A stretch of DNA of 64,000 bases from assembly GCF_009746585.1 (NCBI RefSeq), contig NZ_WRPO01000018.1, positions 1 to 64,000 on the forward strand, in the 5' to 3' direction. The stretch is from Novosphingobium aquimarinum. GTDB lineage: Bacteria > Pseudomonadota > Alphaproteobacteria > Sphingomonadales > Sphingomonadaceae. The notes under the pieces were generated by a model. It was given only the letters and a program-made list of their open reading frames with translations. It was not told the DNA's origin and did no database searches. A program made the translations under genes and the position numbers. Within the stretch, counting starts at the first letter, position 1. The number at the start of each line of letters is the position of its first letter. This document shows, in pieces, positions 52,909-63,746 of the stretch.

Positions 52909-53706
52909 ATGCCCACGAAGGCGCAGAATGATCGTGTCCTCATGCTGGAGGGCGTGCACAACTTCAGAGACTACGGCGGCTATCGAATTGCGGGTGGCGG
53001 CCGCCTCCGGCGTGGCTGGTTATGGCGTTCGGGCCAGCATTACGGCGCGACCGATGCCGATCTGGTGGCGATCGACGCCCTCGGCATCACCGCCGTGTTC
53101 GACTTGCGCACCGATGACGAGCGTGCGCACCACCCTTGCCGCCGCCCCGCGGAGTTCTCGGCCACGATCAACTATGCGGATTCGCCCGACCGGGGAAATG
53201 CGCCGCATCTGGTCGCCGCGCGCTCCGTGCCGAAGCGCACTCCCGAAGCGACACGAGCCATGCTTCGCAAGACCTACGAAACGATTGCTTTTCGCCCCGA
53301 GCTGCAGGCTGCGATCAAGGGTTATCTGGCCGAATTGACTGAAGGTCGCGGGCCGAGCCTGATCAATTGCATGGCCGGAAAGGATCGCACGGGTATCGCG
53401 GTGGCGATGCTCCACCTTGCCACCGGCGTCCATCGCGACGACATCATGGCGGACTACCTGCTGACCAAGACGGCAGGCGATCCGGAAGCCCGGATCCTGT
53501 CGGGGCTCGAGATCATCCGGCAGAAGGCCTGCGAGATCGACGAGGCTTCCGCGCGCACCCTGATGGACGTCGACGCGGACTATCTGGAAACCGCGCTGGC
53601 AGCGATCGAGGATCGCTACGGCACGACCGACGCATTCCTCGAAGAAGCGTTCGGTCTCGACGATCCGAAGCGCGAACGGCTGAGGGATGCACTGGTCGAA
53701 AGCTGA
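52909..53706 (+). CDS. Tyrosine-protein phosphatase (Y_phosphatase3 type)
   Basis: 265 residues. N-terminal NFRDYGGYRI and GWLWRSGQH, then FDLRTDDER (the general-acid loop region), and the P-loop CMAGKDRTG with Cys154 and Arg160 (CX5R). The residue before the nucleophile is Asn153 where most family members have His. No signal peptide, so cytoplasmic. The ATG at 52909 follows AAAGGGAA. The substrate (phosphotyrosine or phosphoinositide-like) is unknown. Confidence 0.88.
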   Translation: MPTKAQNDRVLMLEGVHNFRDYGGYRIAGGGRLRRGWLWRSGQHYGATDADLVAIDALGITAVFDLRTDDERAHHPCRRPAEFSATINYADSPDRGNAPHLVAARSVPKRTPEATRAMLRKTYETIAFRPELQAAIKGYLAELTEGRGPSLINCMAGKDRTGIAVAMLHLATGVHRDDIMADYLLTKTAGDPEARILSGLEIIRQKACEIDEASARTLMDVDADYLETALAAIEDRYGTTDAFLEEAFGLDDPKRERLRDALVES

Positions 53707-55772: not shown

Positions 55773-56552
55773 TCAGTCGCGCAGCGCCGCAAGCGCGCGT
55801 TCGACCAGCCAGTCCTGCGCGTGCGGCTCGACATAGCTGTGCGTCGCGCCGGGGCAGCGGTGGACTTCGGCTCCGCTCAAGTCCCAGGCCGAGAGGAAGG
55901 CCTGTCCGGTCCGGTCGCGTTCGGCGACCAGCCAGGTGACGGGGCCGCCAAAGCGGGACAGCCCCGCCTTCATCTCCTCGACCAGCGTGCTCGGCGGCGG
56001 CGCCGGTCGCAGCGCGCTGATAAGGCTGCCGACGAGGCCGGAGATCGATACCTTGCCGGTCAGGAGCCGGCGGATCGCGGCGGGATCGGCGAGGCGCTGC
56101 CGGTAATGACGGCGCACTTCATCCGAGGCCGGCGGGGCATCGTCCTCGACGGCGTCGTACGTCCAGGTGTTGGATAGGATCAGCGCATCGCAGCCGGCGC
56201 CGCTCGCGAGAAGCAGCGCGCTCGCCGCATCGCAATTGCCCATGCCGACCACGCGCGAGACTTGCGGACATTGTTCGCGCAATGTCTGTAAGGCGGCTTC
56301 TATGTCCTTGTCACTGTTCCGAAATTCTAGGTTCTCGCCTTCGCTGTCACCGGTGCCGCGCCGATCGAAGCGCAGGACCGAGTATCCGGCCGCCGCAATC
56401 CGCGCGGCGAAGCGCGCTTGGCCGCCCCAGGCGCCCGAGCGCAGTTCGTTGCCGCCGGTGACCAACAGCAGCGCCGTCTTCCCCGCGGCCTCGTCGAGGG
56501 TGCCGACCAGCATGTCGCCAGCACAGTCGAAGGTCAGGAACCGGCGAGTCAT
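55773..56552 (-). CDS. Exosortase A system-associated hydrolase 1
   Basis: 259 residues, alpha/beta hydrolase of the group that co-occurs with exosortase A loci. LLVTGGNELRSGAWGGQ, FDRRGTGDSEGEN and the elbow GNCDAAS, which places Cys (not Ser) as the nucleophile, then GATHSYVEP for the His. Last gene of the four-gene minus-strand operon; its ATG overlaps the hydrolase 2 stop (ATGA). The substrate is unknown; it may act on a thioester carried by the nearby ACP (inference). Confidence 0.85.
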   Translation of the reverse strand: MTRRFLTFDCAGDMLVGTLDEAAGKTALLLVTGGNELRSGAWGGQARFAARIAAAGYSVLRFDRRGTGDSEGENLEFRNSDKDIEAALQTLREQCPQVSRVVGMGNCDAASALLLASGAGCDALILSNTWTYDAVEDDAPPASDEVRRHYRQRLADPAAIRRLLTGKVSISGLVGSLISALRPAPPPSTLVEEMKAGLSRFGGPVTWLVAERDRTGQAFLSAWDLSGAEVHRCPGATHSYVEPHAQDWLVERALAALRD

Positions 56553-57223
56553 GGTTTCATGGCCTCAGCAATGATCGCGGCCAGAGCATCGGCCTGCGCT
56601 GCATTTTCGCCCGGCTCGGCTCGCAGCCACAACCCGCTACCGCCGACGCGATCCTGCGCGATGATCTCGGCGTCGGGTGAGGTCTCAAGTGTGTCGAATG
56701 CGCATAGAAACGCGGCGCCGAGACGATGTCCGGCAAGCTCGAGCCCTTCGCGCTGGCCGGCTTCGCGCAGGCTCTCGCTGGTCTCCTCGCGACCGGCCTC
56801 GCGCGCGGAGACGACGCGGCTGCGGATCATCTGGCGCAGCAGGTTCGCCGCCTTGACCGGGGCATAGTGCAGGACACGTGGCGCCCTCGGCGCAAACGGA
56901 CACCCGCCGCGAATGCCAAGAACCGCCGTCGCGCCGAACTGCACTGCTGCCGCGTCCATCGCGCGCTGCCAGCCCGATACGGTCTGGTCTTGCAGGCTCG
57001 CCAAGCTTTCGTTGGTGCCGGGAAGATCTGGCAGGATCGTATCGATATCCGCCGCGTCGAGCCGGCGCATCGTCTCTACCGTCAGCCGACGCAGGCGATT
57101 GGCCTCGTCGAACAACGCGGGAACGATCAGCAGGCGCGCGGCGCGTCCGGAATCGAAAGTCAGGGCATATTCGAAAGTTTCGCCACCGTCGGCGGCGGGG
57201 CATGACCAGTGCCGGGGAGTCAC
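56549..57223 (-). CDS. Exosortase A system-associated hydrolase 2
   Basis: 224 residues from GTG 57223 (VTPRHWSCPAADGG). The reading frame is open further upstream but overlaps the ACP gene, so the GTG is preferred although its ribosome site is poor. It has alpha/beta-hydrolase features (LLIVPALFDEANRLRRL, DLPGTNES), but the elbow position reads GIRGG, with no Ser or Cys nucleophile. The chain is also shorter than the usual roughly 265 residues. It may be a non-catalytic partner of hydrolase 1. Confidence 0.8.
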   Translation of the reverse strand: MTPRHWSCPAADGGETFEYALTFDSGRAARLLIVPALFDEANRLRRLTVETMRRLDAADIDTILPDLPGTNESLASLQDQTVSGWQRAMDAAAVQFGATAVLGIRGGCPFAPRAPRVLHYAPVKAANLLRQMIRSRVVSAREAGREETSESLREAGQREGLELAGHRLGAAFLCAFDTLETSPDAEIIAQDRVGGSGLWLRAEPGENAAQADALAAIIAEAMKP

Positions 57224-57251
57224 GCGGCGGCGGGGTTGGTCGGGTGGCGAG

Positions 57252-57515
57252 TCACACCGTGGCGCGCTTGGCCTCGACGAACCCGAGCAGCGCGCCGTAT
57301 GTTTCCAGCATTTCGCCTTCAATTTCATCGTCTTCGATGATGATGTCGAGACGGTCCTCGATCTCGGTAAGCAGCCCCGCGACCGCCATCGAGTCGAGCT
57401 CGGGCAAATGGCCGAACAGCCCGGTATCGGCATCGAAGCTGTCTGCCTGACCGGGCTTGAGACCGAGCACGTCCGTCAGAATCTGGCGCAGGATCTGGTC
57501 GCTGTCGTCAGCCAT
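57252..57515 (-). CDS. Acyl carrier protein, exosortase A system-associated
   Basis: 87 residues, all helical and strongly acidic. The phosphopantetheine site is Ser42 in LPELDSMAVAG. A typical ACP core (about residues 5-80). It sits between the GNAT/FemAB-like gene and hydrolase 2 on the minus strand, opposite the AMP ligase, which is the obvious candidate to load it. It is not close to fatty-acid synthesis genes. Confidence 0.9.
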   Translation of the reverse strand: MADDSDQILRQILTDVLGLKPGQADSFDADTGLFGHLPELDSMAVAGLLTEIEDRLDIIIEDDEIEGEMLETYGALLGFVEAKRATV

Positions 57516-57565
57516 CGGGTTTCTCGCTCGCACTGCCAAAAAGTCCATGTCCGGGGGGCTCGCCC

Positions 57566-58579
57566 TTAACCGCGCTTCGCGGTTGCGGCAAGGCGCCTCA
57601 GCCCGATCCGCATGATTTGCGGCCAGTTGCGTGGGACCATCGGGCGATAGAGCATCAGCCGATAGCGGCTGCGGACCTGTTCCATCCAGTCGCGTTTGTA
57701 GGGATCGTTGCCGGTGCCGAAATCGATGGCGGCCACGCGGTCCTCGTCGATAACATGGCGGAAGAGCGCTGCCGACAGAACGGTGCCGGGCGAAAGCGGC
57801 TTCGCACTCTCGCGATGGGCGAGCTTGTGAATGAAGGCGGTGCCACCTTCGACGGTCCACATTTGCGCGGCGATCGCCTCGCCGCCCGCGTAGGCAACGC
57901 CGAGCCGCAAGCGCCCAGCTGCGCCTTCGGCCTCGGCAAAGGCGCGCAGGAACGCGGGGCTGCCTTCTTCGGGCTTCCAGCTTTCGGAGTAGATCGCTTC
58001 GTAAGCGGCCCAGACGTCCTCGTCGAAGCGCGTGAGCACCTGGGTTTCGACCTTTCCGGACTTGCGCTTCAGCGTCGTGCGCAGCTTGCCCGGGCGGCCC
58101 GCCAGGTATTGCTCGTAACTGCGGCCGTCGAGTTCGAGGTAGTGATTGACGTCGCAGGGCTCGCATACCGCGAACCAGCCTGCCCTGCGGAACGCTTCGG
58201 CAAGACGGGTCGCACTGCCGTCTTCGCCCGACAGGCCACGCAGTTCGAGCCGATCGGCCTGTGTCGCAAGGTCGGTCGCGATCGCTCCGAGCAAGCATGC
58301 GGCGTCGGCGCCTTCGGAAAGGATCGGCCGCACTCGAAAGCTGTACCAGTTGCCGAGCGCGGCGAAACCGTCGCCATCGCGGCGCAGTGGCAGGATCGCG
58401 ACCGCCTCGCCTTCGCGCGCGACCGCTAGCAGCGGCGCGATGCCGCAGTGCGCGGCGAGCGCCTGCCACCAGTCGATCCGATCGAACGGCGCATCGCGCG
58501 CCCGATCCGACAGCAGGCGACCCAGCACGGCATCGGATTGCACTTCCTTAAGATCGGCGTGATATTCGACCCTGACCAC
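57566..58579 (-). CDS. GNAT/FemAB-like acyltransferase, XrtA system-associated
   Basis: 337 residues. Two GNAT-like halves as in the FemAB/CelD (Acetyltransf_6) group; conserved parts include NHYLELDGRSYEQYL, GKLRTTLKRKSGKV and AAIDFGTGNDPYKRDWM. The GTG at 58579 is chosen because GGGAAGG lies at the right distance. An in-frame GTG at 58612 has no ribosome site. First gene of the minus-strand operon; it probably transfers an acyl or aminoacyl group, perhaps from the ACP (inference). Confidence 0.85.
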   Translation of the reverse strand: MVRVEYHADLKEVQSDAVLGRLLSDRARDAPFDRIDWWQALAAHCGIAPLLAVAREGEAVAILPLRRDGDGFAALGNWYSFRVRPILSEGADAACLLGAIATDLATQADRLELRGLSGEDGSATRLAEAFRRAGWFAVCEPCDVNHYLELDGRSYEQYLAGRPGKLRTTLKRKSGKVETQVLTRFDEDVWAAYEAIYSESWKPEEGSPAFLRAFAEAEGAAGRLRLGVAYAGGEAIAAQMWTVEGGTAFIHKLAHRESAKPLSPGTVLSAALFRHVIDEDRVAAIDFGTGNDPYKRDWMEQVRSRYRLMLYRPMVPRNWPQIMRIGLRRLAATAKRG

Positions 58580-58617
58580 TCGAACCTTCCCGACTTTTCC
58601 GGAGCCAGACACGGTAA

Positions 58618-60144
58618 ATGCCCGGCATGCCCGTAACTCCCGTCCTGCCGATCGACCACCTGCCGCTGCGGGGTGCCGACGCCGACCAGGCGCTCGTCCT
58701 GCGTTCGGGAACGCTTAGCTACGAGGCCTTAAGATCGCGTGTCTCGAGGTTGGCGGGCTGGCTGGCGCAGCAGTTGCCCGAGACAGGCGCGCGCGTCGCC
58801 ACTTGGGCGACGAAGGGCGAGTTGACGTGCCTGATGCCACTAGCCGCGGCGCGGGCGGGGCTGATTCACGTGCCGGTCAATCCGCTGCTCAAGCGTGCGC
58901 AAGTCGCGCATATCCTCGCCGACAGCGGCGCACGGATGCTGATCGGCACGCCGGCGCGGTTGAAGACGTTGGAACCGGCTGATGTGCCAGGCGATTGCCT
59001 GATAACCGATGAAGAACAGGCACTTACTGATGCGACTTCGGGCGAATCGGAATTGCCACCCAGCGACGCAGAACCCGACGCGTTGGCGGCCATTCTCTAC
59101 ACCAGCGGTTCGACGGGACGACCAAAAGGCGTGATGCTCAGCCACGCGAATCTCTGGCTCGGCGCGGAGAGTGTTGCGGATTATCTTGGCCTGACGGCTG
59201 AGGATCGAACGCTGGCCGTGCTGCCGTTCGCCTTCGACTATGGCCAGAACCAGCTGTTATCGACCTGGTATGCCGGTGGCTGTGTCGTTCCGATCGACTA
59301 TCTTTTGCCGCGGGATCTGGTGAAGGCGGTCGGTAGGCATGCGATCACGACGCTGGCGGCCGTGCCGCCGCTGTGGGTGCAGCTATGCGAGCTCGATTGG
59401 CCCGCCGATGTTGCAGCCACCCTCAAGCGGCTGACCAATAGCGGCGGCGCGCTCACGCCTGATCTCGTCCGGCGGCTGCGCGGTCTGTTTCCCGAGGCAA
59501 GGCTTTTTGCCATGTACGGCCTGACCGAGGCGTTCCGCTCGACTTATCTCGATCCGGTCCTGATCGATACGCACCCGACCTCGATGGGTTCAGCGATCCC
59601 CCATGCGGAAATTCTGGTTATCAATGACTTGGGAGGGGTTGCCGAGATTGGAGAGGAAGGCGAACTGGTCCACTGTGGCCCCCTCGTGGCGGCGGGATAC
59701 TGGCAGGACGCACAGCGCACGGCGGAACGCTTTCGACCTGCGCCTGCGGCATCGCGCTACGGCGGCATGGCGGTCTGGTCCGGGGACCGGGTCCGCCGCG
59801 ACGCCGAAGGGTTGCTCTATTTCGTTGGACGGCGCGATGCGATGATCAAGTCCGCCGGCAATCGCATCAGCCCGCAGGAGATCGAGGAAGCCGCCCTGGC
59901 AACCGGTCTCGTCGCAGAGGCGGTCGCCCTCGGCGTTGCCGACGAGCGGCTGGGGCAGGCGGTGCACCTGGTCGTAAGGCCCGCGGCAGACAGATCCGAA
60001 GCTGAAGCAGAACTTCCTCGTAAGCTGATGCAAGTATTGCCGAATTTCATGCAGCCCCAAGTCATCCACTGGAAGGCGACAATGCCCATCGGACCGAACG
60101 GAAAGATCGACCGCGCTGGCCTCGGCGCAGAGTTGGCGCGATGA
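58618..60144 (+). CDS. Acyl-CoA ligase (AMP-forming), exosortase A system-associated
   Basis: 508 residues. Adenylate-forming enzyme: P-loop AILYTSGSTGRPKGVMLSH, YGLTEAFRSTYL, then SGDRVRRDAEGLLYFVGR and the C-terminal lysine in PNGKIDRAG. This ligase is characteristic of XrtA/PEP-CTERM exopolysaccharide loci. It is divergent from the GNAT gene with only 38 bases between the chosen starts. Its stop overlaps the next ATG (ATGA). The acid it activates is unknown. Confidence 0.92.
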   Translation: MPGMPVTPVLPIDHLPLRGADADQALVLRSGTLSYEALRSRVSRLAGWLAQQLPETGARVATWATKGELTCLMPLAAARAGLIHVPVNPLLKRAQVAHILADSGARMLIGTPARLKTLEPADVPGDCLITDEEQALTDATSGESELPPSDAEPDALAAILYTSGSTGRPKGVMLSHANLWLGAESVADYLGLTAEDRTLAVLPFAFDYGQNQLLSTWYAGGCVVPIDYLLPRDLVKAVGRHAITTLAAVPPLWVQLCELDWPADVAATLKRLTNSGGALTPDLVRRLRGLFPEARLFAMYGLTEAFRSTYLDPVLIDTHPTSMGSAIPHAEILVINDLGGVAEIGEEGELVHCGPLVAAGYWQDAQRTAERFRPAPAASRYGGMAVWSGDRVRRDAEGLLYFVGRRDAMIKSAGNRISPQEIEEAALATGLVAEAVALGVADERLGQAVHLVVRPAADRSEAEAELPRKLMQVLPNFMQPQVIHWKATMPIGPNGKIDRAGLGAELAR

Positions 60145-61367
60145 AGCCGCTCGGCCCGATCCCCACCGGCTATTCGGCCATCGACGGCGTGCTTGCCGTG
60201 GGCGGGCGCAAAGTCACGGACTGGGTGGACGAGGAAGGCGCAACGCCGCTGTTCCTCTATTCCGCCGATCTTGTCAGGTCGCGCATTGCTCAGCTGCGCA
60301 CCGCGCTCCCCGAGAGAATCGCGCTGCATTACGCGGTGAAAGCCAATCCCTTTGCGCCGCTGCTGGCGATGATGAACGGTCTCGTCGACGGGTTCGACAT
60401 CGCATCGGGCGGAGAGCTCGAGATCGTGCGCGCGGCGGGCATCGATCCGCGCGCCGTCAGCTTCGCCGGGCCGGGCAAGCGCGATGCCGAACTCGAAGCC
60501 GCCATCGTTGCCGGTGTCACGCTCAATCTCGAATCGGAAGGCGAGGCCGCGCGGGCGCTGGCGATTGCCGAGCGACTTGGCGTGACGCCGCAGCTGGCAG
60601 TGCGGGTCAATCCCGATTTCGACCTCAAGGGATCGGGCATGAAGATGGGCGGCGGCGCCAAGCCCTTCGGCGTGGATGCCGAGCGCGTGCCTGCCTTGGT
60701 GCGCCATCTGATCGATGCGGGAGCCGACTGGCAGGGCTTTCACATCTTCGCTGGCAGCCAGGCGCTCGATGCCGAGGCGATCGCCGATACGCAAGCGCAG
60801 ACGCTGGCGTTAGCTGCCCGCCTAACGCAAGAGATCGGGCAAAGCCCGCCGCGCTGCAATCTGGGCGGCGGCTTCGGCATTCCCTACTTTCCCGGCGATA
60901 CGCCGCTCGACCTCGATCTGGTCGGCCAGCGTCTCGCAGAGGCGATGGCCGCGCTCCCTGGCAAGATCGAATCGACTCAATTCTGCATCGAACTCGGCCG
61001 CTACCTCGTCGGCGAGGCGGGGGTCTATCTGGCCCGTGTGATCGATCGCAAGGAAAGCCACGGCGAGATCTTTCTCGTCACCGACGGCGGGCTGCATCAC
61101 CAGCTCGCCGCCTCGGGCAACTTCGGCACCGTGGTACGCCGCAATTACCCCAGCGCGATCGCGACGCGCTTCGGCGCCGAGCCCGAGGAGGAAGCCACGA
61201 TCGTCGGCTGCCTGTGCACGCCGCTCGACAAACTGGCGGACAAGGGCGGTTTTCCGCGGGCCGATGTGGGCGATCTCGTCGCGGTGTTCTGCGCCGGGGC
61301 CTATGGTGCCAGCGCCAGCCCCGCGTCCTTCTTGGGACAGGGGCCCGCGCGTGAACGCCTCGTCTGA
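60141..61367 (+). CDS. PLP-dependent decarboxylase, exosortase A system-associated
   Basis: 408 residues. Fold type III decarboxylase related to diaminopimelate and ornithine decarboxylases. PLP lysine is Lys67 (HYAVKANP); other marks are FDIASGGELE, NLGGGFGIPY, ELGRYLVGEAGVY and GCLCTPLDKLA, with the active-site cysteine in CLCTPLD. Coupled to the ligase by ATGA. A decarboxylase beside a ligase and ACP suggests a small amine or amino acid joins the polysaccharide pathway (inference). Confidence 0.93.
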   Translation: MKPLGPIPTGYSAIDGVLAVGGRKVTDWVDEEGATPLFLYSADLVRSRIAQLRTALPERIALHYAVKANPFAPLLAMMNGLVDGFDIASGGELEIVRAAGIDPRAVSFAGPGKRDAELEAAIVAGVTLNLESEGEAARALAIAERLGVTPQLAVRVNPDFDLKGSGMKMGGGAKPFGVDAERVPALVRHLIDAGADWQGFHIFAGSQALDAEAIADTQAQTLALAARLTQEIGQSPPRCNLGGGFGIPYFPGDTPLDLDLVGQRLAEAMAALPGKIESTQFCIELGRYLVGEAGVYLARVIDRKESHGEIFLVTDGGLHHQLAASGNFGTVVRRNYPSAIATRFGAEPEEEATIVGCLCTPLDKLADKGGFPRADVGDLVAVFCAGAYGASASPASFLGQGPARERLV

Positions 61368-61564: not shown

Positions 61565-62209
61565 ATGCCCAATGCCCGTATTGCTCGCCTGACCGGTGGC
61601 ATCGCGCTAGCCAGCCTCGCGCTGACCGGCTGCATGTCGGGTGCGAACAAGCCGGAGCTGCCGCCGGCCTCGTTCGTGGCGATGCAGGAAGGCCCCGGCG
61701 AGGAATACGTCATCGGTCCGCTCGACCAGCTGACGATCTTCGTCTGGCGCAACCCGGAGCTTGGCGCGAAAGTTCAGGTGCGGCCCGACGGGCGCATCAC
61801 CACCCCGCTGATCACCGACATGCCTGCCGTGGGTAAGACGCCCTCGATGCTCGCCGAAGACATCCGGCTGCAGCTCTCGCAATACATCGAGGAGCCGCTG
61901 GTCTCGGTGATCGTCAACGAATTCGCCGGCACGTTCAGTCAACAGGTCCGCATCGTCGGCGCGACCGAAAAGCCGGCCTCGATCCCCTACCGCGCCAACA
62001 TGACGGTGCTCGACGCGATGATCGCGGTCGGCGGCCTGTCCGAATACGCGGCGGGCAACAAGGCGAGGCTGATCCGCTTCGACAAGGAACTGGGCAAGCA
62101 GCGCGAATTCGCGATGCGGCTGGGCGACTTGCTCAAGAAGGGGGACAGCTCCGCGAACGTGATGCTGAGCCCCGGCGACGTGATCATCATCCCCGAAAGC
62201 ATGTTCTGA
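61565..62209 (+). CDS. XrtA-type polysaccharide export lipoprotein
   Basis: 214 residues. Wza-related outer-membrane export protein. Lipobox LTGC (Cys23), then the poly_export segment (YVIGPLDQLTIFVWRNPEL, VRPDGRITTPLI) and an SLBB domain (VRIVGATEKPASIPYRANM, MLSPGDVIIIPESMF). The short form without a long C-terminal barrel is usual in XrtA loci. AAGGA precedes the ATG. Followed 16 bases later by the chain-length gene. Confidence 0.94.
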   Translation: MPNARIARLTGGIALASLALTGCMSGANKPELPPASFVAMQEGPGEEYVIGPLDQLTIFVWRNPELGAKVQVRPDGRITTPLITDMPAVGKTPSMLAEDIRLQLSQYIEEPLVSVIVNEFAGTFSQQVRIVGATEKPASIPYRANMTVLDAMIAVGGLSEYAAGNKARLIRFDKELGKQREFAMRLGDLLKKGDSSANVMLSPGDVIIIPESMF

Positions 62210-62225
62210 GGACGCGCGGCCACCC

Positions 62226-63746
62226 ATGAACGTCGTTTACGAAGAACTGCTCGCAGCGATCCACAGCGTCTGGCACCGGCGCTGGCTGGCGCTGGCCGTC
62301 GCGTGGGCGGTGTGTTTGGTCGGCTGGCTGGTCGTGGCGCTGATCCCGAACAGCTACGAATCGAAGGCGCGCCTGTTCGTGCAGCTCGACGACGCGCTGG
62401 CCGAGCAGGTCGGCATCGGCGTCGCCGACCGCAAGCGCGACATCGAGCGCATTCGTCAGACGCTGACCAGCGCGGTCAATCTCGAGAAGGTCGTGCGCTC
62501 GACCCCGATCGGCGACACGATCACCAGCCCCAAGCAGCTGGAGGCCAAGGTCCTCGCGCTGGCGGAGAACATCGATGTCGTGAGCCAGCAGGACAACCTG
62601 TTCGAGATCACCGCCATTTCCAACGATCCGTCCTTCTCGGACGCCGAGAACGCGCAGCTCGCCCGCAGCGTGGCGCAAAAGCTGATCGACATCTTCCGCG
62701 AAGAGAACCTTGCCGGAAACCGCGGCGAAATGAGCGAGACGATCGAGTTCGTGAACCAGCAGCTCGCCCAGCGCGAGAAGCAGCTGGAACGAGCCGAGCA
62801 GGAGCGAATGGCGTTCGAAGCGGCGCATCCCGAAATGGCGCAAGGCGCTGCGGCCACGGCCCAGCGGCTCGAAGCCTCGCGCTCGGAACTGCGCGGCGTG
62901 GAAGCCGATCTGGCGGCGGCCCAGAGCGCGCTCGCCGCGATCGACGGGCAGCTCGCGGGCACTCCGCAGAGCCTGCCGGGCGGCACAGCCGGCAGCGCCG
63001 CCGCTGCGCTGCAACGCGCCCAGACCGAGCTTGCCGGAATGCGCGCGCGCGGGTTGACCGACAACCACCCCGACGTGATCAGCACCAGGAACCAGCTTGC
63101 TTCTCTCAAAGCCGCGGCCGAGCGGGAGCAATCTTCGGGCGGCGGCGTGCCGAACCCGGCCTTCACCTCGCTGCAGTCGATCCGCGCCGAACGGCAGGCC
63201 AATGTCCAGTCGCTCAACTCGCGCAAGGCGTCGCTGCAGTCGGAAGTCGCCAATTTCTCGGCTGCCGCGCTCGATAATCCCGAGGCTTCGGCCGACTACC
63301 AGCGGATCAATCGCGACTACGACGTGCTGCGCCAGCAGTACGACAAGCTCTTGCAGGACCGCGAGGAACTGAAGCTGCGCGGCGAAATCAAGACCGAGCG
63401 CGAGGCCGTGAAGTTCGAGGTCGTGGACCCGCCGACGACGCCGGTCGCACCGACCGCGCCAAATCGCCCGATGCTGCTGTTCGGGGTGTTGATCGCCGGT
63501 CTTGGCGCGGGCGCCGGCTCCGCCTTCGCGCTAGGCAAGATCCGCTCGACCTTCGCCACCACGGCCTCGCTCGAGCGCGCGACCGGGCTGCCGGTGCTGG
63601 GCGCGATCTCGCAGACCATGACCGATGCGGCCCGCAAGCTGCGCCGCCGCCGGCTCAAGTATTTCTACGGCGCCACGGCGGCGCTCGGCGGCTTGTTCGT
63701 CGTGCTGCTCGCAGCCGAATTCATCCAGCGCGGCCTGGTCGCGTGA
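62226..63746 (+). CDS. XrtA system polysaccharide chain-length determinant (Wzz-like)
   Basis: 506 residues. Inner-membrane co-polymerase. An N-terminal span (about residues 20-40), the Wzz domain, a long periplasmic coiled coil (about 165-390, for example LAQREKQLERAEQERMAFEA), and C-terminal spans near 415-435 and 475-500. The short cytoplasmic end has no Walker motifs; the kinase is the next gene. Seventeen bases separate it from the export gene. Confidence 0.94.
   Translation: MNVVYEELLAAIHSVWHRRWLALAVAWAVCLVGWLVVALIPNSYESKARLFVQLDDALAEQVGIGVADRKRDIERIRQTLTSAVNLEKVVRSTPIGDTITSPKQLEAKVLALAENIDVVSQQDNLFEITAISNDPSFSDAENAQLARSVAQKLIDIFREENLAGNRGEMSETIEFVNQQLAQREKQLERAEQERMAFEAAHPEMAQGAAATAQRLEASRSELRGVEADLAAAQSALAAIDGQLAGTPQSLPGGTAGSAAAALQRAQTELAGMRARGLTDNHPDVISTRNQLASLKAAAEREQSSGGGVPNPAFTSLQSIRAERQANVQSLNSRKASLQSEVANFSAAALDNPEASADYQRINRDYDVLRQQYDKLLQDREELKLRGEIKTEREAVKFEVVDPPTTPVAPTAPNRPMLLFGVLIAGLGAGAGSAFALGKIRSTFATTASLERATGLPVLGAISQTMTDAARKLRRRRLKYFYGATAALGGLFVVLLAAEFIQRGLVA

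Follow-up and report, generated by a model that had tools for sequence, protein, structure and literature searches.

In vicenistatin assembly, a stand-alone enzyme adenylates the side chain of (methyl)aspartate (VinN), a stand-alone acyl carrier protein (ACP; VinL) receives it, and a pyridoxal phosphate (PLP) decarboxylase (VinO) acts on the ACP-bound residue; FlvN of fluvirucin and BolO/BolC/BolN of the bolagladins are of the same kind. VinN loads VinL with 3-methylaspartate (PMC11284099), attaching it through the beta-carboxyl (PMC7756342). In the AFC-BC11 pathway of Burkholderia, AfcQ/AfcK/AfcP turn L-Asp into beta-Ala on one carrier, a reaction reconstituted in vitro (PMC12186527), and in butirosin biosynthesis BtrK decarboxylates glutamyl-S-BtrI, i.e. 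a glutamyl-S-ACP. We describe here a locus comparable to these systems, located in a window of 64,000 nucleotides of Novosphingobium aquimarinum (contig NZ_WRPO01000018.1, positions 1 to 64,000). It comprises an adenylating ligase, an ACP and a PLP decarboxylase—together called the triad hereafter—with two hydrolases and a GNAT-fold acyltransferase, and it lies beside genes of the exosortase A (XrtA) system.

We put at about 0.65 the probability that the triad performs a carrier-bound conversion of aspartate to beta-alanine. The ligase would adenylate an acidic amino acid, L-aspartate being the likeliest, at its side-chain carboxyl; the activated residue would be loaded on the phosphopantetheine of Ser42 of the ACP, giving isoaspartyl-S-ACP; the decarboxylase would then strip the free alpha-carboxyl on the carrier, leaving beta-alanyl-S-ACP. 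Substrate, product, roles of the hydrolases and destination are proposed here from homology, residues and linkage.

Ligase, carrier and decarboxylase of the triad

Among the PDB rows with one matched stretch, VinN (3wvn) is the best match to the ligase, at 172.9 bits. Higher summed scores come from five rows of linear gramicidin synthase A (LgrA, 269 bits) and from 8xjz (191.8 bits), each with two stretches; we rejected LgrA as the closest relative because its 269 bits are a sum over two domains (120.7 and 146.0 in the row shown). The pocket of VinN is formed by Asp230, Phe231, Ser299, Met323, Lys330 and Arg331, and one loop lacks a residue compared with other adenylation domains (PMC7756342, PMC9484153, PMC11253843). 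The ligase displays Asp207, Tyr208, Ser275, Met299, Phe306, Arg307 and Lys496, of which Asp207, Ser275, Met299 and Arg307 are the counterparts of VinN Asp230, Ser299, Met323 and Arg331 at matching spacing: Ser–Met and Met–Arg are 24 and 8 residues apart as in VinN, against 21 and 9 in GrsA (published VinN/GrsA numbering), and Asp–Ser are 68 apart, against 69 in VinN. Both the Arg331 counterpart and the shortened beta13–beta14 loop are thus found.

Out of 35 ligase-like proteins aligned from sampled loci, we kept the 28 with the YGLTE motif and dropped seven; the Met, the Arg at position 307 and the catalytic Lys occur in all 28, and the counterpart of Asp207—VinN Asp230, which holds the amino group—in the 27 having letters there, the last showing a gap. 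The pattern M..AFR[SA] is present in the ligases of 78 of 80 named loci, the remaining two, without match, being possibly truncated. The Arg is also kept in all 20 loci inspected from genomes without an XrtA match at the search threshold (called XrtA-free below; other exosortase types may be present), one of which carries MFGLTE instead of MYGLTE. In AfcQ the equivalent of VinN Arg331, Arg311, is the proposed determinant of selectivity: it would block the usual binding of L-Asp and turn the beta-carboxyl towards the catalytic Lys (PMC12186527). The protein thus looks like an amino-acid adenylating enzyme rather than an "acyl-CoA ligase", and we predict a VinN-type L-Asp beta-carboxyl:ACP ligase, by which we mean that it would work like VinN, not that its membership is proven.

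For the decarboxylase, the nearest solved structure is BtrK (223.7 bits), against 138.3 bits for the best diaminopimelate decarboxylase. Where LysA has a Cys-Glu pair the decarboxylase has Cys359-Thr360: CE[ST] is found in 13 of 13 sampled LysA and CT[PST] in 31 of 31 relatives of the decarboxylase, while CTP is common to all 80 named loci and to BtrK. The CE(S/T) motif of LysA binds the D-centre. A separate LysA, above cut-off, exists in the source genome. A tree of 49 rows, from a quick search, has a fully supported branch (SH-aLRT 100) with the 13 LysA on one side and the remaining 36 on the other, among them BtrK as a long branch; the decarboxylase side also contains genes of Sinorhizobium meliloti pSymB (50% identity) and of a Burkholderia locus (46%). 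BolN and AfcP are described as acting on carrier-bound aspartate, which was demonstrated in vitro for AfcP (PMC7756342, PMC12186527). By its relatives and its motif, the decarboxylase is predicted to act on ACP-bound isoaspartate.

The carrier accompanies these two enzymes closely: 63 full-length named loci found through the decarboxylase all have the ligase, and 61 of them an ACP within the locus. The active-site Ser42 of the window ACP was counted on its translation. The original prediction had the ligase activate an acid that the ACP then carries, and this is supported as probable. The same prediction combined this organic acid with a second building block, an amine supplied by the decarboxylase, to give a linker or decoration in the XrtA system; such a separate amine is not supported. 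The gene set and the XrtA linkage are indeed as it described them, but the decarboxylase comes closest to a carrier-bound type with CT in place of the CE of diaminopimelate decarboxylases, the ligase carries the Asp expected for an amino acid, and ligase and decarboxylase are retained without XrtA; we regard that scheme as very unlikely.

Several observations weigh against our assignment of the triad. The equivalence with VinN rests on spacing and published residue numbers, not on a residue-by-residue alignment. At the Ser275 position the 28 relatives have Ser in 20 cases, Thr in seven and Ala in one; VinN Lys330 has no Lys counterpart, being Phe306 here and Phe in 25 or His in three of the relatives. 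Because of the change of Lys330 to Phe306, and of the Thr or Ala in 8 of 28 at Ser275, glutamate or another acidic amino acid keeps some probability as substrate. We nevertheless treat Lys330 as non-essential, since BolO was assigned by Asp230, Ser299 and Arg331, and AfcQ by Arg331 (PMC7756342, PMC12186527). BtrK, the closest solved decarboxylase, does use glutamate, which gives some weight to a version in which gamma-aminobutyryl-S-ACP is made as in butirosin biosynthesis; the ligase, however, resembles the aspartate-type VinN, with Asp, Ser, Met and Arg in its pocket. The butirosin ligase and transferase belong to other families, and this difference of ligase also counts against the glutamate version, which we find improbable. 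Finally, three of the 20 XrtA-free loci (L183, L186 and L197) have ligase and decarboxylase and no ACP found within about 9 kb, and no release enzyme is fixed in XrtA-free loci.

The locus and its accessory genes

The six genes announced by the original prediction were all recovered where it placed them, by profile matches and translations (Table 1). Its description of the two divergent operons as tightly overlapping is slightly overstated: ligase and decarboxylase on the one hand, hydrolases 2 and 1 on the other, overlap by 4 bases, but the remaining junctions are short gaps. The start of the GNAT gene is uncertain, at the GTG of 58612 or at a later one.

Table 1. Features of the triad locus and its immediate neighbours (window coordinates; scores against family cut-offs where available)
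Feature	Position	Strand	Match and remarks
Hydrolase 1	55773-56552	-	TIGR03100, 203.6 bits (cut-off 168.45)
Hydrolase 2	56549 to ~57223	-	TIGR03101, 37.6 bits (cut-off 202.75); predicted alpha/beta-hydrolase fold
Stand-alone ACP	57252-57515	-	PF00550; Ser42 in LPELDS
GNAT-fold acyltransferase (Acetyltransf_6)	57566 to ~58612	-	PF13480; accessory
Adenylating ligase	58618-60144	+	TIGR03098, 640.8 bits (cut-off 592.35)
Fold type III PLP decarboxylase	60141-61367	+	TIGR03099, 586.5 bits (cut-off 478.45)
XrtA-system polysaccharide export protein (neighbour)	61565-62209	+	TIGR03027
XrtA-system chain-length determinant (neighbour)	62226-63746	+	TIGR03007

The proximity of the set to XrtA and exopolysaccharide genes, also foreseen, is borne out: the contig extends 10.7 kb beyond the window, and XrtA itself is encoded there, some 10 kb downstream of the set. 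The downstream genes encode a tyrosine kinase (below its own cut-off), a 583-residue protein without NCBIfam match, an ATPase, a deacetylase, a FemAB protein, a glycosyltransferase, XrtA and an amidotransferase. Five of these (ATPase, deacetylase, FemAB, glycosyltransferase and amidotransferase) score above the thresholds of their XrtA-system families. No polyketide synthase or non-ribosomal peptide synthetase was found among the scanned neighbours. In this downstream stretch (L006, 7183-8661, G000:C10), XrtA and an EpsI domain form a single open frame, matched at 2-260 and 321-483 respectively. Within the window, an open frame at 52909-53706 carries an NCMAGKDRTG motif of the sort found in tyrosine-phosphatase-like proteins.

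The two hydrolases were expected to edit the product, and this is not supported for the pair. Hydrolase 1 has a Cys107, Asp213, His238 catalytic triad, kept in 63 of 64 aligned relatives (one gap) and invariant in the 14 of a separate alignment; its model (mean predicted local distance difference test score, pLDDT, 83.7, with two short stretches below 50) adopts an alpha/beta-hydrolase fold with Z up to 23.5. Hydrolase 2 is modelled in the same fold (mean pLDDT 94.6, Z 18.0) and shows Arg105 at the nucleophile elbow, as do 15 of 15 and 64 of 64 relatives in two sets. Neither has the Ser nucleophile of serine alpha/beta-hydrolases. Hydrolase 2 has no Pfam match at E 0.001 and stays far below the TIGR03101 cut-off; its position beside hydrolase 1 and its fold still suggest its identity. 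In a Shinella plasmid and in genome G126 the two are fused in the order 2-1, with by eye a Gly or Arg at the nucleophile position of the first half and a Cys in the second. Feruloyl esterases rank top for both in a fold search, and DcsB and GrgF come at ranks 4 and 5 for hydrolase 1; the latter two are enzymes using Cys, for which a look-up in the literature gave no confirmation. Class III polyhydroxyalkanoate synthase, which combines a Cys enzyme with a partner, may be a parallel. From residues and models, hydrolase 1 is predicted to be a thioesterase or an acyltransferase, and hydrolase 2 its non-catalytic partner.

The GNAT protein has no NCBIfam match at E 0.001 and is distinct from the XrtA-associated FemAB of TIGR03019, which is encoded by a separate gene downstream. 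Each of hydrolase 1, hydrolase 2 and GNAT is found in 56 of the 63 full-length named loci, and all three are absent from the same seven. In the XrtA/exopolysaccharide genomes, the Cys-bearing hydrolase 1 and the nucleophile-less hydrolase 2, sometimes with the GNAT, would probably release the beta-alanyl group or transfer it to a sugar amine.

Occurrence with XrtA and possible destinations of the product

Two samples were surveyed: a phylum sample of 299 genomes and a family sample of 149 Sphingomonadaceae. In the former, the decarboxylase is above cut-off in 19 genomes and XrtA in 20, with both in 17 (Fisher p 9e-23, ancestry not corrected); in all 17 they lie on one contig, 13 times within about 11 kb and at the furthest about 107 kb apart by the listed coordinates. 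The three genomes with XrtA and no decarboxylase above cut-off (G007, G015, G267) all belong to family f30. The two with the converse pattern are G107, where the triad has glycosyltransferases, a deacetylase and a weakly Wzy-matching gene around it, and G155, which retains the XrtA-system deacetylase and ATPase and has a weaker exosortase match elsewhere. In the family sample (matches counted up to E 1e-110 for the decarboxylase and up to E 1e-62 for XrtA, the latter all above cut-off), the decarboxylase occurs in 125 genomes and XrtA in 96: 93 have both, 32 the decarboxylase only, 3 XrtA only (these being 86, 94 and 90% complete) and 21 neither.

The decarboxylase is thus not confined to XrtA genomes, and its presence in 32 of 125 Sphingomonadaceae without XrtA above cut-off weakens a role in protein sorting. 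We inspected 20 of these 32 XrtA-free loci: ligase and decarboxylase are in all 20 and the ACP in 17, while hydrolase 1, hydrolase 2 and GNAT are in none. With this and their joint absence from seven of the 63 named loci, the hydrolases and the GNAT track XrtA more than the triad does. As the triad is kept without them in many XrtA-free Sphingomonadaceae, it probably has some other use as well, the leading guess being the supply of beta-alanine for pantothenate and coenzyme A in genomes without panD. Two of the 20 loci retain export, chain-length, deacetylase and FemAB genes, and four more a match, weak in one case, to ATPase, amidotransferase or chain-length genes.

The conserved neighbours of XrtA-free and triad-only loci were rejected as a functional clue: of ten recurring frames scanned, four have no Pfam match, and among the remaining ones are thioredoxin-reductase-like, deformylase, formyltransferase, iron-sulfur, GHMP-kinase and hotdog-thioesterase proteins. 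In 12 loci (e.g. L162, 13602-14153) the hotdog (4HBT) thioesterase is found close to the triad, 9 of them among 27 triad-only or XrtA-free loci; it could serve for product release or merely be an old neighbour.

Within XrtA genomes the product might decorate the exopolysaccharide: the GNAT, FemAB or hydrolase 1 would take the beta-alanyl (or gamma-aminobutyryl) group from the ACP and attach it to a deacetylated amino sugar in the XrtA-linked polysaccharide. The linkage found in 17 of the 19 phylum genomes is in favor of it, as are the deacetylase and FemAB of the locus itself and the disappearance of hydrolases and GNAT from the XrtA-free loci; a polysaccharide deacetylase and glycosyltransferases also stand near the triad in S. 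meliloti pSymB and G107, where no XrtA was found, respectively in the annotated stretch and above cut-off in the genome. On the other hand 32 of 125 family genomes have the decarboxylase without XrtA above cut-off, 18 of the 20 inspected loci have no Wza-type polysaccharide export gene found within about 9 kb, and the GNAT is missing from 7 of the 13 Sphingomonadaceae of the phylum sample (in five of five for genus g2), leaving it in six. We know of no beta-alanine-bearing polysaccharide from these organisms, though no search was aimed at one; this also counts against such a decoration. All in all we hold it for quite possible, though short of even odds.

As for coenzyme A, beta-alanine is the product of PanD (aspartate 1-decarboxylase), an unrelated pyruvoyl enzyme using free aspartate; both product and substrate would match those of the triad, which could replace PanD, with hydrolase 1 or some other thioesterase freeing the product from its carrier. 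A search of the source genome gave no panD match. In the phylum sample panD is present in 164 of 299 genomes, but in none of the 19 module genomes, against 164 of the 280 others; panC is present in all 19. Of the 24 module-less Sphingomonadaceae, 18 were analysed (G317, G331 and four unlisted ones being left out): six have panD, five others have no panC and seven have panC without panD. G429, a genus mate of G356, is without the module and has panD. Genomes that are panD-positive or panC-negative thus amount to 11 of 18 without the module and to none of 13 family genomes with it (Fisher p 4.4e-4). For panD alone the figures are 6 of 18 and 0 of 13 (p 0.028), and after manual grouping into genera, with the one mixed genus scored against the idea, 7 of 13 and 0 of 8 (p 0.018); these family and genus tests ignore deeper ancestry. 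The persistence of ligase and decarboxylase after XrtA, hydrolases and GNAT are gone points in the same direction. So does Table A2 of PMC7142369, in which, by our own count over 19 Sphingomonadales, aspartate decarboxylase and glutamate decarboxylase are listed in none and PYD3 in two; the same table gives 13 with the AAM transaminase, which makes the triad one candidate source of beta-alanine in most of them, beside transaminases.

The supply of coenzyme A meets objections of its own. Shared ancestry is still in the counts: the lack of panD in module genomes is confounded by it, because panD is rare in alphaproteobacteria (17% of 204 genomes, PMC7142369). The seven module-less genomes having panC and neither panD nor module need another source of beta-alanine. 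The transaminase is a possible one, and rhizobia obtain beta-alanine by degradation of uracil (PMC7142369). Besides, six of 16 further genomes whose decarboxylase match is below cut-off do have panD, the Sinorhizobium and Burkholderia triads lie in polysaccharide or natural-product loci, some XrtA-free loci may be recent losses of XrtA since several keep other genes of the system, and for XrtA genomes the strong linkage to XrtA continues to speak for use in a polysaccharide. The transaminase count and the six weaker-match genomes with panD led us to lower our estimate slightly, and we consider this role as tentative.

Coenzyme A supply and polysaccharide use can coexist. One might imagine, with similar reserve, that Sphingomonadaceae, along with other bacteria lacking panD, make beta-alanine from aspartate on an ACP as a precursor of pantothenate and coenzyme A, that this pathway goes unrecognised behind the label "exosortase A system-associated", and that XrtA/exopolysaccharide loci recruited it, together with a Cys-type acyltransferase and a pseudo-hydrolase, for decorating polysaccharide. 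If true, carrier-bound aspartate decarboxylation would extend into surface-polymer or core metabolism, the beta-alanine source of sphingomonads would gain a new testable candidate, and many database records would carry misleading names (a protein-sorting part, an acyl-CoA ligase).

Comparison with described systems

To our knowledge, carrier-bound decarboxylation of aspartate has been described only in natural-product assembly. In the open-licence part of PubMed Central, outside which most subscription journals lie, we found no paper describing this gene set or tying an exosortase to carrier-bound beta-alanine, and the main text of the paper defining PEP-CTERM/EpsH (PMC1569441) does not use the terms decarboxylase, acyl carrier, hydrolase, ligase or acyltransferase anywhere. 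The Bep exopolysaccharide cluster was rejected as a characterised example: it has a TIGR03100-type hydrolase, and the words ligase and decarboxylase are absent from the main text of PMC3584217, as far as excerpted. The earlier statement that no chemistry is proven hence holds for the window gene set, but not for its homologues VinN/VinL/VinO and AfcQ/AfcK/AfcP, whose chemistry has already been shown.

Related triads are found in other settings. In a Burkholderia cenocepacia replicon (L083, 8686-19941) the triad is beside three genes like 3-ketoacyl-ACP synthase III (KAS III), two acyl-CoA dehydrogenase-like genes and a LuxR-type regulator. We rejected its identity with the AFC-BC11 cluster: its Arg and Lys are 191 positions apart, where 192 is published for AfcQ, and the would-be start residue for Arg311 is Gln; it looks like a distinct natural-product locus. 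A Streptomyces plasmid (L085, 7995-12905) bears a ligase with a VinN-like KR pair after YGLTE, a carrier and a BtrK-like decarboxylase, next to a holo-ACP synthase, a hotdog protein, ectoine synthase and EctA, as a small biosynthetic locus. On S. meliloti pSymB (L082, 10192-26523) the triad is included in a cluster of polysaccharide type, whose other genes include glycosyltransferases, a deacetylase and a member of the O-antigen ligase family; 27 Sinorhizobium records carry the decarboxylase.

With regard to the exosortase A system-associated families TIGR03098, TIGR03099, TIGR03100 and TIGR03101, ligase, decarboxylase and hydrolase 1 pass the cut-offs and hydrolase 2 does not; the residues and the XrtA-free genomes argue otherwise than the NCBIfam names, which imply an acyl-CoA ligase and a role with XrtA. 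BtrK shares the CTP motif of the decarboxylase and differs by its substrate. Beyond its triad the AFC cluster encodes a fatty acyl-AMP ligase, KAS III-like enzymes and oxidases; no such gene is among the scanned neighbours of the window locus. VinN has Lys330 where the window ligase has Phe, and unlike the VinN/VinL/VinO genes the loci of the window type lie with exopolysaccharide and XrtA genes, or in loci without them. The chemistry would thus be of a known kind, that of VinN/VinL/VinO, while its setting, and possibly a housekeeping role, would be new.

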